Shown here: positions 31,192 to 35,630 of the stretch, one piece after another
How the letters are laid out: each line of letters starts with the position of its first letter
Position numbering within the stretch: position 1 is the stretch's first letter
DNA from: Rhizobium lentis
GTDB taxonomy: Bacteria > Pseudomonadota > Alphaproteobacteria > Rhizobiales > Rhizobiaceae
Assembly (NCBI RefSeq): GCF_014200175.1
Contig: NZ_JACHBD010000003.1
Span: forward strand, 62,001-126,000
Direction: 5' to 3'
DNA length: 64,000 nt
The notes under the pieces: model-generated
Told to the model about the DNA's origin: nothing
Seen by the model: the letters and a program-made list of their open reading frames with translations, nothing else
The model's database searches: none
Translations under genes and position numbers: made by a program

Positions 31192-34100
31192 TCACACAAG
31201 CTCGACGTCGACGACGCCGGGGGCAGCGCGAAGAGCGGCGGCGATCTCCGGGGTGATGCGGTATTTCTCCGGCAGCGCCACTTCAACCTCACGCTTGCCC
31301 TCTTCCTTGATGACGATGAAGGAAACCAGGCCGTCGCCCTTGGCGTTCAGGTGGCCGGCAACCATTTTCAGCGGCCCGGAATCGCGGACATAGACCCGCA
31401 GCGCCTTCTGCATCTGCAGCGACTTTTCCTCCAGCGACTGGATCGTCTGGATGCGCAGACCGATGCCCTCTGGCCGCTCCTCGCCGGTCGCGGTCAGCAG
31501 GAAGGATTTTCCGGACTCCAACATGTCGCGGTATTGGTTCAGCATTTCCGAAAACAGCACGGCCTCGAACTGGCCCGACGAATCCGAAAAAACGATGATG
31601 CCCATCTTGTTGCCGGTGCGGGTCTTGCGCTCCTGCTTGGAGATGACGGTGCCGGCAAGTCGCGCATTGGATGCGCCCTGTTTGATCGCTGCGGAAAATT
31701 CGGCAAAGGTCTGCACCCGCATCTTCTGCAGGATATTGCTGTAGGAATCGAGCGGGTGGGCGGTCAGATAGAAACCCAGCACCTGGAATTCCTTGAGCAG
31801 CCGCTCCGAGGCAAGCCAGGGAGAAAACGGCGGCAGGGCAATCTTCTCGGGCCCCGAGGTCAGGGTGCTGCCGAAAATATCCGACTGACCGCTCAACTTG
31901 TTCTCTTGGGCGCGCTGGGCGTAACCAAGGATACGATCTAGCCCGGCCGAAAGCTGGGCGCGATCCATACCGAAACAATCGAAGGCACCGGCAAAGATCA
32001 GGCTTTCCAGCACGCGGCGGTTGACCTGGCGCGGATCGATGCGCAGGCAGAAATCCTCGATGCCGGCAAAGGGCTTGTCGCCGCGCACCTCGACGATATG
32101 GTCGACGGCGGATTCGCCGACGCCCTTGAGAGCGGCGAGCGCATAATAGATGCGGTTGTCGCCGGTTTCGAACTGGCGGAAGGAGGTCTGCACCGACGGG
32201 GCGATCACCTCGATGCCGAGGCGCTTGGCGTCTTGGCGGAAGTCGTTGACCTTTTCGGTGTTGGACATGTCGAGCGTCATCGAGGCGGCAAGGAATTCGA
32301 CCGGATAATGCGCCTTCATATAGGCCGTCTGGTAGGAGACGATGGCGTAGGCGGCGGCATGCGACTTGTTGAAGCCGTAATTGGCGAACTTCGCCAGCAG
32401 TTCGAAAATATTGTCGGCTTGCGGCTTCGAGACGCCGTTCTTGATGGCGCCATCGACGAAGCGTTCGCGCTGCTGGTCCATCTCGGCCTTGATCTTCTTA
32501 CCCATGGCGCGGCGCAAAAGATCGGCCTCTCCGAGCGAATAACCGGACAGGACCTGGGCGATCTGCATCACCTGTTCCTGATAGACGATGACCCCTTGGG
32601 TTTCCTTGAGCAGGTGGTCGATCATCGGATGGATCGATTCCAGCTCTTCGTCACCGTGCTTGCGAGCGTTGTAGGTCGGGATGTTCTCCATCGGACCCGG
32701 ACGATAGAGCGCCACCAGCGCGATGATGTCCTCGATGCAGTCCGGCCTCATGCCGATCAGCGCCTTGCGCATGCCGGCACTTTCCACCTGGAACACGCCG
32801 ACCGTCTCGCCGCGTGACAGCATCTCGTAGGTCTTCTTGTCGTCCAGGGGAATGGCCGCAAGGTCGACACTGATGCCGCGCTTGGCGACGAAATCGACGG
32901 CGACCTTCAGGACGGTCAGCGTCTTCAGGCCGAGGAAGTCGAATTTGACCAGGCCCGCCTGCTCCACCCATTTCATGTTGAACTGGGTGACCGGCATGTC
33001 GGAGCGCGGATCGCGATACATCGGCACCAGCTTGGACAGCGGTCGGTCGCCGATGACGATACCGGCGGCATGGGTCGAGGCATGGCGGTAAAGCCCCTCG
33101 ATCTTCTGAGCGATATCGAGCAGGCGCGCAACCACCGGCTCCTTGGCCGCCTCCTCCTGCAGCTTCGGCTCCTCCTCGATCGCCTTGGAGAGCGGCGTCG
33201 GATTGGCCGGATTGTTCGGCACGAGTTTGCAGATCTTGTCGACCTGGCCGTAGGGCATCTCCAGCACGCGGCCGACGTCGCGCAGTGCTGCGCGCGCCTG
33301 CAGCGAACCGAAGGTGATGATCTGGGCCACCTGTTCGCGGCCGTACTTGGCCTGGACGTATCGGATCACCTCTTCGCGGCGGTCCTGGCAGAAGTCGATG
33401 TCGAAGTCCGGCATCGAGACGCGTTCCGGATTGAGGAAGCGCTCGAACAGCAGCGAAAACCGCAAGGGATCGACGTCGGTGATCGTCAGTGCGTAGGCGA
33501 CCAGCGAACCGGCGCCCGAACCGCGGCCGGGACCAACCGGAATGTCATGCTGCTTGGCCCATTTGATGAAGTCGGCAACGATCAGGAAGTAGCCGGGAAA
33601 GCGCATGCGTTCGATGACGCTGAGCTCGAATTCCAGTCGCTCGCGATAATCCTTTTCCTCGTAACCCGGCGACATGCCGAGGGTCGAAAGCCGCATGTCC
33701 AGCCCTTCGACCGCCTGGCGGCGCAATTCACCCGCCTCGGCGCGTTCGGCTTCCTCGGGGTCGTCGGTCGCACCCGTGAAGCGCGGCAGGATCGGTTTGC
33801 GCGTCTTCAATACGAAGGAGCAGCGCTTGGCGATCTCGATCGTGTTCTCCAGCGCTTCCGGCAGGTCGGCAAAGAGCTTGGCCATCTCGGCGCGGCTCTT
33901 CAGATAATGATCCGGCGTCAGACGAAAGCGGCTGTCGTCGGAGACGATGGCATTATGAGCAACCGCCATCAGCGCATCATGGGCGTCGTAATCGTCGCGC
34001 GTGGGAAAAAAGGCTTCGTTAGTGGCGACCAGCGGCAGGTCGTGGGCATAAGCGAGCCCGACGATCTTCTGCTCATGCCGTTTGTCGTAGGTGCCATGAC

Positions 34101-34689
34101 GCTGCAGTTCGACATAGAGCCGGTCGCCGAAGAGACGCTTCAGCATGAGCAGCCGCGCTTCGGCCTGAGCGGGATGGCCATCCCTGATCGCCCCGTCGAC
34201 CGGCCCTGTCAGGGCGCCGGTCAAGGCGATAAGCCCTTCCGTGCCCGCCTCCTCCAGCCAGGAGGTTCGGACATGGACGGCCTGATTGCCTTCACCGCCG
34301 AGATAGGCGCGGCTGATGAGGTCGACCAGCCTTTCGTATCCGGCCTCCGTCGCTGCGAGAAGAACGATCGACGGCAGCTTGACCAATGCCTGCTGGCCGC
34401 CGCGTTTCTCGGTCTCCAGCCCGTCTTCCATGTCGATCGAGACTTGGCAGCCGATGATCGGCTGCAGACCGTCGTCCATTGCCTTCTGCGAGAATTCGAG
34501 GGCGACGAACAGATTGTTGGTGTCGGTAATCGCGATAGCCGGCTGATTGTCTGCGGTCGCCTTGTAGAGAATCTTCTTCAGCGGCAGCGCGCCTTCGAGA
34601 AGCGAATAGGCGGAATGGACTCTCAGGTGAATGAAGCCCGGCGTGTCGCCGATCGCCTCACCCGTCGAAGCCTTTACCGTATCCGCCAT
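31192..34689 (-). CDS. dnaE: DNA polymerase III alpha subunit
   Basis: Replicative polymerase, 1165 residues from ATG 34689. Another in-frame ATG five codons upstream (34704) has no advantage. The PHP domain begins FIHLRVHSAYSLLEGALPL. The catalytic core has GPGRGSGAGSLVAY and the acidic PDFDIDF. The fingers region has NYGFNKSHAAAYA. A tandem HhH and an OB-fold follow toward the C-terminus. It is the housekeeping DnaE1 by length and content; the mutagenic imuB-dnaE2 cassette is not here. Confidence 0.95.
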   Translation of the reverse strand: MADTVKASTGEAIGDTPGFIHLRVHSAYSLLEGALPLKKILYKATADNQPAIAITDTNNLFVALEFSQKAMDDGLQPIIGCQVSIDMEDGLETEKRGGQQALVKLPSIVLLAATEAGYERLVDLISRAYLGGEGNQAVHVRTSWLEEAGTEGLIALTGALTGPVDGAIRDGHPAQAEARLLMLKRLFGDRLYVELQRHGTYDKRHEQKIVGLAYAHDLPLVATNEAFFPTRDDYDAHDALMAVAHNAIVSDDSRFRLTPDHYLKSRAEMAKLFADLPEALENTIEIAKRCSFVLKTRKPILPRFTGATDDPEEAERAEAGELRRQAVEGLDMRLSTLGMSPGYEEKDYRERLEFELSVIERMRFPGYFLIVADFIKWAKQHDIPVGPGRGSGAGSLVAYALTITDVDPLRFSLLFERFLNPERVSMPDFDIDFCQDRREEVIRYVQAKYGREQVAQIITFGSLQARAALRDVGRVLEMPYGQVDKICKLVPNNPANPTPLSKAIEEEPKLQEEAAKEPVVARLLDIAQKIEGLYRHASTHAAGIVIGDRPLSKLVPMYRDPRSDMPVTQFNMKWVEQAGLVKFDFLGLKTLTVLKVAVDFVAKRGISVDLAAIPLDDKKTYEMLSRGETVGVFQVESAGMRKALIGMRPDCIEDIIALVALYRPGPMENIPTYNARKHGDEELESIHPMIDHLLKETQGVIVYQEQVMQIAQVLSGYSLGEADLLRRAMGKKIKAEMDQQRERFVDGAIKNGVSKPQADNIFELLAKFANYGFNKSHAAAYAIVSYQTAYMKAHYPVEFLAASMTLDMSNTEKVNDFRQDAKRLGIEVIAPSVQTSFRQFETGDNRIYYALAALKGVGESAVDHIVEVRGDKPFAGIEDFCLRIDPRQVNRRVLESLIFAGAFDCFGMDRAQLSAGLDRILGYAQRAQENKLSGQSDIFGSTLTSGPEKIALPPFSPWLASERLLKEFQVLGFYLTAHPLDSYSNILQKMRVQTFAEFSAAIKQGASNARLAGTVISKQERKTRTGNKMGIIVFSDSSGQFEAVLFSEMLNQYRDMLESGKSFLLTATGEERPEGIGLRIQTIQSLEEKSLQMQKALRVYVRDSGPLKMVAGHLNAKGDGLVSFIVIKEEGKREVEVALPEKYRITPEIAAALRAAPGVVDVELV

Positions 34690-34806
34690 GACATGCCTTC
34701 CCAATCACCGATTGAATCAGATGCATTGTCGGGTATGGAGGGCGATGATGTCCAGAAGAAGTCCCGGGTTCGAACCGCATGCTGACCATGCAGTCCCCTG
34801 AAAACT

Positions 34807-34893
34807 TTAGATCGCGATGACGATGAGCGAGAAGCTGGCAACGAACATTGCGATGGAGGTGAATGCTGCGATATCACGGATCATGTCAGTCAT
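34807..34893 (-). CDS. 28-residue membrane peptide under a LexA box
   Basis: ATG at 34893 is preceded by a strong ribosome site (AAAGGAG, spacing 7). The frame runs 28 codons to TAA. The start is MTDMIRDIAAFTS and the rest (IAMFVASFSLIVIAI) is one hydrophobic helix ending at the stop codon, so a single-pass inner-membrane peptide is expected. A GTTC-N7-GTTC LexA box lies 33 bp upstream, next to a TTGACA -35. The size and control recall Caulobacter SidA, a 29-residue SOS-induced membrane inhibitor of cell division, but I cannot claim homology. It lies upstream of dnaE in the same direction. Confidence 0.75.
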   Translation of the reverse strand: MTDMIRDIAAFTSIAMFVASFSLIVIAI

Positions 34894-34926
34894 TTGGCTC
34901 TCCTTTACTCGTTATGTTTTCAATTT

Positions 34927-34941
34927 GTTCGATCTATGTTC
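34927..34941 (-). promoter_or_regulatory. LexA (SOS) box of the 28-residue peptide gene
   Basis: GTTC GATCTAT GTTC on the plus strand (GAAC-N7-GAAC on the coding strand). A TTGACA -35 sits just upstream at 34950-34945, so bound LexA would cover the -35/-10 spacer. The flanking bases TTTGTTC...ATGTTC are shared with the second box at 35105. Confidence 0.7.
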
Positions 34942-35104
34942 CGATGTCAACAGGAATCTTTTCCTTCTTGCTTGCGTTTGAAAAACGCCCCGGCGACGCA
35001 ACGATTCGGCGATGAGCTTGAGATGCCGAGCCGCGGCCTCGCAAGCCCGCCGTGCCGCAAAGGACGTAGACACACCCCGCCGATGACAAAAGCACCGCGC
35101 ATTT

Positions 35105-35119
35105 GTTCTATTTATGTTC
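35105..35119 (+). promoter_or_regulatory. LexA (SOS) box upstream of the DUF5680 gene
   Basis: GTTC TATTTAT GTTC, followed 11 bp later by a perfect rhizobial -10, CTATAT (35131-35136). The box would cover the -35 region of a promoter for the gene at 35166. The rest of the 272-bp divergent gap shows nothing else. Confidence 0.65.
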
Positions 35120-35165
35120 TGCGCATCCTGCTATATCACAACTGACGAGTCAGGCGGAGTACCCT

Positions 35166-35630
35166 ATGCCCGAGACTGCGATGCTGAACGAATTCGTCGT
35201 CGAAGCCAAAGCTGCCAGCTATGTCGGCGGCGGCGTGCCGCGCCCGCCCTGCCGTCCGGGGTCTCACGATATCGGCTACGAGCGCGGCGACTGGCGCTAT
35301 CTCGACAGCTACTTCGGCGGCACCGATTTCGCCGGACAGGAGGTGGTGTGGTTTGCCGACGAGCCGATCTGGGCGATGAATTATTTCGGCTGGGTCATTG
35401 CTCCCGATCTCATCGATGCCAGCGCAGCGGGAACAGTGATCAAGGCGGCGCTGTCTGCCCTGTACCGGCAGGGCCGCTTTCTCGGCGGAATTGAATTCGA
35501 CCATCCGTTCGGCCGATATGTCGATCGCAGCGAAGGCGGCTGTGAACGATTCAGCGGTCATGAATGCATCATGGTCGACGGACGGAAGGCTTACGCGTTC
35601 GACTATCGCGGCGGGCTGATCATCCCATGA
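35166..35630 (+). CDS. DUF5680 domain protein, LexA-boxed
   Basis: A 154-residue soluble protein matching DUF5680 from end to end: LNEFVVEAKAASYVGGG, RPGSHDIGYERGDWRYLDSYFGG, GQEVVWFADEPIWAMNYFGWV, and a C-terminal GHECIMVDGRKAYAFDYRGG. The family function is unknown. ATG 35166 follows a purine-rich site (AGGCGGAG). The frame is open a little upstream but would run through the LexA box and -10, so 35166 is preferred. It is divergent from the 28-residue peptide gene. Confidence 0.85.
   Translation: MPETAMLNEFVVEAKAASYVGGGVPRPPCRPGSHDIGYERGDWRYLDSYFGGTDFAGQEVVWFADEPIWAMNYFGWVIAPDLIDASAAGTVIKAALSALYRQGRFLGGIEFDHPFGRYVDRSEGGCERFSGHECIMVDGRKAYAFDYRGGLIIP

Follow-up and report, generated by a model that had tools for sequence, protein, structure and literature searches.

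The locus was analysed within a window comprising the whole stretch of DNA under study, which is 64,000 nucleotides long. On another contig of this genome, a dnaE2-imuB-imuA stretch shows 90% identity to plasmid DNA of Rhizobium etli, on which basis the genus is taken as Rhizobium or a close one, within Rhizobiaceae and Hyphomicrobiales. A 28-codon ORF located at 34807..34893 (−), stop codon included, has its ATG at 34893 and a stop codon ending at 34807, and its product (MTDMIRDIAAFTSIAMFVASFSLIVIAI) was annotated as a predicted single-helix membrane peptide and SidA homologue on the basis of its sequence, its conservation, and its similarity to SidA. The hydrophobic stretch extends from approximately residue 8 to the C-terminal end, and the peptide has the size and single membrane helix of SidA (about 29 amino acids), the helix being a hydrophobicity-based prediction. 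No family was found for the window peptide in Pfam or PHROGs.

The start codon is preceded by the ribosome site AAAGGAG at 34900..34906 (−), and a ribosome-site-like motif occurs at this place in 94 of the 95 related loci collected from the family (the family loci, described below). Read along the minus strand, the order of elements is TTGACA, 3 nt, a LexA-type box (GAACATAGATCGAAC, 34941-34927), 33 nt that include the AAAGGAG, and the ATG. The box itself, GAAC-N7-GAAC at 34927..34941 (−), which reads as GTTC-N7-GTTC on the plus strand, is a putative LexA site, and the TTGACA at 34945..34950 (−) is a likely −35 element. The first-pass annotation had described a strong ribosome site, 28 codons with one hydrophobic helix running up to the stop codon, and a GTTC-N7-GTTC box adjoining a TTGACA with the box edge 33 bp before the ATG, and all of these were borne out. 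A third half-site, AAAC, which is imperfect, lies in register at 34916..34919 (−), 22 nt after the start of the box. A complete sigma-70 promoter for the peptide was not called in a consensus scan, which gave no clear −10.

The downstream neighbour is dnaE1 (31192..34689, −), which encodes the replicative DNA polymerase III alpha subunit and starts at 34689, 117 nt past the peptide stop and on the same strand. No terminator-like site was detected between the peptide gene and dnaE1, and no unusual fold was found in the 246 nt from the leader to dnaE1 (z 0.78). We infer that the two genes are co-transcribed. A promoter-like site, TGGACA-18-GACAAT, was observed between them at 34725-34754 (−), with 9 of 12 matches and 0.2 such sites expected, so that dnaE1 could have a separate transcription start of its own there.

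The product of the divergent next gene (35166-35630, +) belongs to DUF5680 (Pfam E 4.5e-25), and a separate LexA-type box lies at 35105-35119, 46 bp before the ATG of this gene. Of 32 loci from relatives, 31 have a box ahead of the DUF5680 gene, and L016 lacks one. This gene looks like a second SOS gene, to which no function was assigned.

Conservation of the peptide gene and its box

A small-ORF-aware tblastn across Rhizobiaceae and a test of conservation at the codon level had been proposed in the first-pass annotation, and both were performed. The peptide proved to be widespread, being found by tblastn in all 37 genomes of the genus as well as in 1 of 24 others (E up to 1), and in 178 of 394 genomes and 43 of 109 genera of the family when the single window sequence was used as the query (E up to 0.1). 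A search with the wider profile A2 recovered it from 252 of 297 family genomes and 95 of 109 genera (E up to 0.05), a result which may include some chance matches and which differs from the single-sequence count of genera (43/109) in both sample size and E limit. In the alignment underlying A2, the L129 and L201 rows were trimmed manually at their N-terminal ends, and M was placed first for L129, so the A2 searches rest partly on edited rows; the rows of alignments A1, A3, and A4 were used as read, without editing.

A total of 95 family loci were compared, of which 55 were taken from tblastn, best matches first, and 40 were selected from the 178 matching family genomes, usually with one or two for each genus. 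The ORF is 28 codons long in 91 of these loci, 27 in two, and 33 in two. For the coding test, loci L001-L033 of the genus were used (33 loci with 27 distinct sequences), and pS was 0.373, pN was 0.059, and dN/dS was 0.12. Variable columns at codon positions 1, 2, and 3 numbered 5, 2, and 22, respectively, across the 28 codons. Nonsynonymous change exceeded synonymous change in four of the other five frames, and the remaining one, a reverse frame, gave a ratio of 0.33, which is expected because third positions face third positions. Conservation at the codon level was thus found within the genus, and the amino-acid sequence of the 28-residue peptide is under selection.

Alphaproteobacterial LexA binds GTTC-N7-GTTC. 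The first-pass annotation had put the chance rate of this motif at about two per window, in agreement with the 1.84 copies expected; five were observed, a number reached by 2 of 100 shuffles. Across the whole genome, 185 copies of the motif were counted versus 144 for the reversed motif, and the box motif on its own is weak evidence. The 95 family loci were chosen by peptide similarity, independently of the box. An exact box lies 90 nt or less from the ATG in 89 of them, and a box with at most one mismatch in all 95, versus an exact box in 5 of 1900 shuffled 90-mers. It is this conservation across the family loci that raises the window box above chance.

A chance ORF lying next to a chance motif was also considered, and was rejected on the dN/dS of 0.12 together with the conservation of the box across the 95 family loci.

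TTGAC is present upstream in 86 of the 95 family loci, and in 72 of these 86 its first base lies 9 nt ahead of the first base of an exact box. GAAC or AAAC stands in register at the third half-site in 73 of the 95, which would allow two overlapping sites, and LexA may use both of them before the peptide gene. The conserved box makes the peptide gene a candidate for LexA control.

The same-strand position of dnaE1 downstream of the peptide was found in 94 of the 95 family loci, the two genes being separated by roughly 79 to 526 nt (median 118). In two lineages, box and peptide are kept beside lolD (L076/L286 in G127 and L252/L287 in G407), and no dnaE was found in the 15 kb (L286) or 14 kb (L287) around these lolD-side copies. 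Since L286 and L287 keep the box and the peptide without a nearby dnaE, the peptide gene is not merely a dnaE1 leader.

Extra peptide copies away from dnaE were observed in seven family genomes (loci L277, L278, L279, L280, L281, L282, L283, L284, and L285), with three of the copies carried by G338. Over the 100-110 nt preceding their starts, no exact box was found in any of them, and L285 has a box with one mismatch. Phage families are represented among the genes surrounding L277 (exonuclease VIII phrog_412, E 2e-16; phrog_2201; phrog_1273), so at least this extra copy seems to lie in a prophage. A tblastn search of the phage collection with two of the extra peptide copies returned no match.

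Layout across the class and similarity to SidA

The gene dnaE was found in 137 of 142 genomes of the class, and the DNA upstream of it was read in 90 of these 137 (30 + 60), mainly the larger ones, with 47 left out. The same layout, in which an identically oriented box comes before a small hydrophobic ORF that has a ribosome-site-like motif, precedes dnaE in 14 of the 90 (L128, L129 with a GTG start, L130, L153, L166, L171, L179, L189, L200, L201, L204, L206, L210, and L211). Within the 60 upstream regions, GAAC-N7-GAAC occurs 13 times, at 11 loci, versus once for the reversed motif, and GTTC-N7-GTTC occurs 5 times versus twice for the reversed motif. Two LexA-type boxes 18 nt apart were observed upstream of dnaE at L193 (G512), where no small hydrophobic ORF passed the filter.

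Profile A1, which was built from the window family only, was run on 385 class genomes and gave mostly weak matches outside the family, the search by position being more informative. Its matches L097 and L100 likewise carry the box and the ORF, and their A1 scores are not independent because both were found with A1. When the order was searched with A2, matches were obtained in 98 of 297 genomes and 50 of 122 genera (E up to 0.05), some of them inside long frames and looking like chance. Of 42 loci drawn from the order and from the family of one Caulobacter genome, 38 have a box (last base C or T) and 41 have dnaE on the same strand; three of these loci duplicate places already sampled, and two of the four box misses are cases in which the ORF was not placed by the script.

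Caulobacter genomes were sampled using a search for the S-layer protein RsaA, which provided four named Caulobacter genomes; L221, an unassigned MAG, was left out. A box and a 29-amino-acid ORF precede dnaE in all four, two of the ORFs being identical and two being close variants, and in the family to which one of these four belongs the peptide was found in 62 of 80 genomes (E up to 0.05). The NCBIfam model NF033228 calls the ORF at Caulobacter locus L222 SidA (E 6.4e-21, 74 bits versus a cut-off of 35, positions 1-29 of 29). In C. crescentus itself, sidA and dnaE are neighbours. 

The sidA gene is CCNA_02004 (PMC10769358) and Caulobacter dnaE is CC1926 (PMC1839093), and SidA is a 29-amino-acid, SOS-induced inner membrane protein that acts on FtsW/FtsN (PMC4211646).

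Two Caulobacter SidA sequences scored 13.2 and 11.2 bits with A1, values that were reached by none of 1000 full shuffles and none of 1000 pattern-keeping shuffles. Applied to the 14 class ORFs, A1 gave scores that were matched by at most 1 of 1000 shuffles for L129, L130, L189, and L206, by 2-4 for L201, and by 7-12 for L153. The scores of the remaining eight were reached by 20 or more of 1000 shuffles, so these eight are linked by position only. Profile-profile comparison of the family with SidA gave an E of 7.8e-6 and a probability of 84%, over residues 1-19 only. Other sequences of the order served as bridges, matching SidA at 8.3e-7 and being matched by the family at 2.4e-13.

As a background, 933 other small hydrophobic ORFs from the same DNA were scored, after 167 look-alikes had been removed under a rule that itself draws on the family. 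Three of these reached the median SidA score under A1 and none did so under the order profile A4; the three are all shortened versions of the L281-L283 extra copies. In the reverse direction, in which a SidA profile was run on the rhizobial peptides, 4 of the 933 background ORFs reached the family-peptide median. A gapless alignment of the window peptide with SidA has R6, D/E7, A10, S13, A15, F17, and V18 in agreement.

The window peptide was not matched by NF033228 even when E values up to 10 were allowed, and a search of this genome with the model was likewise empty at a limit of 1; across the order its matches all fell below the cut-off, with 0 of 249 genomes above it. For this reason, a syntenic SidA homologue is claimed here and not the NCBI equivalog. 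Judged by its sequence (shuffles, the profile E of 7.8e-6, and the bridging sequences) and by its place upstream of dnaE, which is shared by all but one of the 95 family loci and by all four named Caulobacter genomes searched, the window peptide is a homologue of SidA. These comparisons suggest a family of SidA much wider than NCBI's curated model, which sees only part of it. The first-pass proposal of a rhizobial SidA counterpart is largely supported by the codon conservation, the box, the dnaE layout in other families, the NF033228 call on the Caulobacter ORF, and a similarity greater than that of the controls.

Proposed role, alternative readings, and known systems

The gene is likely to be the rhizobial counterpart of sidA, encoding a LexA-repressed, damage-induced peptide that would hold the septal synthase inactive. 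LexA on the box just after the −35 would repress the peptide gene, and DNA damage would lead to LexA cleavage and to a short-leader message with a good ribosome site for its translation. The peptide, 28 residues long, would enter the inner membrane as one helix and would hold the septal wall synthase (FtsW/FtsI/FtsN), once assembled, in an inactive state for as long as repair continues. The observed gene, protein-sequence selection, conserved box, dnaE synteny, and SidA similarity underlie this reading; that LexA binds there, that the rhizobial peptide is induced and inserted in the membrane, and that it acts on this target and arrests division are predictions by analogy with SidA.

FtsW and FtsN are both binding partners of Caulobacter SidA, which is thought to hold FtsW/I/N inactive with Z rings undisturbed (PMC4211646), and SidA on FtsW was modelled in a 2026 paper, the models of which are self-described as not high confidence (PMC13396833). 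The Caulobacter FtsW substitution A31K relieves SidA but not DidA (PMC4211646). By eye, position 31 of FtsW reads M in this genome and T in the family member G370, with A in L269 (Caulobacter) and in G810; the comparison used printed N-terminal stretches only, the whole-protein alignment being wrong for L270 and L271, and in a check of the numbering A31, F145, and A246 all fell right in L269. The M that takes the place of Caulobacter FtsW A31 in this genome is a point against a SidA-type action, though one of little weight in either direction.

This change at FtsW A31, which is not kept in the family (M, T), would suit a small SOS membrane protein descended from SidA that has another membrane target and is not a division inhibitor, as would a C-terminal third unlike SidA and a profile alignment that covers residues 1-19 only. 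We consider such a protein unlikely, however, because the size, box, place, and R-D/E...A..S.A.FV pattern are all kept and sequences of the order bridge to SidA. A type I toxin similar to TisB or DinQ, which would depolarise the membrane in the SOS response and be held by antisense RNA, shares with the window peptide the LexA box, the small size, and the single hydrophobic helix (PMC3567139), but there was no Rfam match in 34500-35300, the fold from leader to dnaE1 is ordinary (z 0.78), a long structured leader would hardly fit into the 33 nt from box to ATG, and both homology and place point to SidA. A toxin is very improbable, and was rejected on the absent Rfam match and the ordinary fold, although an undescribed antisense RNA is conceivable. 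An upstream ORF or leader peptide controlling dnaE1, to which the presence of dnaE1 after the peptide on the same strand in 94 of the 95 family loci and the description of S. meliloti 5'-UTR sORFs, with sORF25 before dnaE1 named, as possible upstream ORFs (PMC10117765) would lend themselves, is the least probable of all and was rejected on the amino-acid selection (dN/dS 0.12) and the dnaE-less L286 and L287 loci beside lolD, with the variable gap, the lack of a terminator or unusual fold, and the identity of the Caulobacter gene in the same place as SidA also standing against it.

With the gene read as the rhizobial counterpart of sidA, a broader and more tentative idea, possible but on balance doubtful, is that SidA, rather than being peculiar to Caulobacter, is an old alphaproteobacterial checkpoint gene in a LexA box-sidA-dnaE unit, in which one repressor would both stop division and raise the replicative polymerase, and that the boxless extra copies in some rhizobial prophages may block host division. 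No rhizobial SidA homologue or SOS division inhibitor appeared in the titles and abstract starts among the literature matches listed, and a remark in the original SidA paper is possible. SOS division inhibitors vary among bacterial groups, and a 28-codon candidate is named here in a tractable symbiont group. The layout also raises the testable idea that division arrest and the replicative polymerase may be wired together across much of a bacterial class.

Among known systems, TisB and DinQ of E. coli are likewise LexA-controlled, small, single-helix membrane peptides, but they are type I toxins with an antisense RNA (PMC3567139), and none was found at the window locus by Rfam or fold. YneA, SosA, and ChiZ are small membrane division inhibitors induced by SOS or damage and thought to act on the FtsW complex (PMC13396833; PMC6851548); they belong to other lineages and are likened here by description, not by sequence. 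S. meliloti sORF25 is a novel translated small ORF in the dnaE1 5'-UTR (PMC10117765), which is the place of the peptide in 94 of the 95 family loci. It is likened by position only, and LexA, DNA damage, and SidA are not mentioned in the excerpted text of that paper (PMC10117765); by this position it is probably the S. meliloti copy of the peptide gene, translation of which may therefore already have been observed. SidA itself differs from the window peptide in that the rhizobial C-terminal third is unlike SidA and the rhizobial peptide falls below NF033228 detection, but the two agree in length (29 versus 28 residues), in a single hydrophobic helix with a short N-terminus, and in a LexA-type box and ribosome site, with dnaE following immediately on the same strand.
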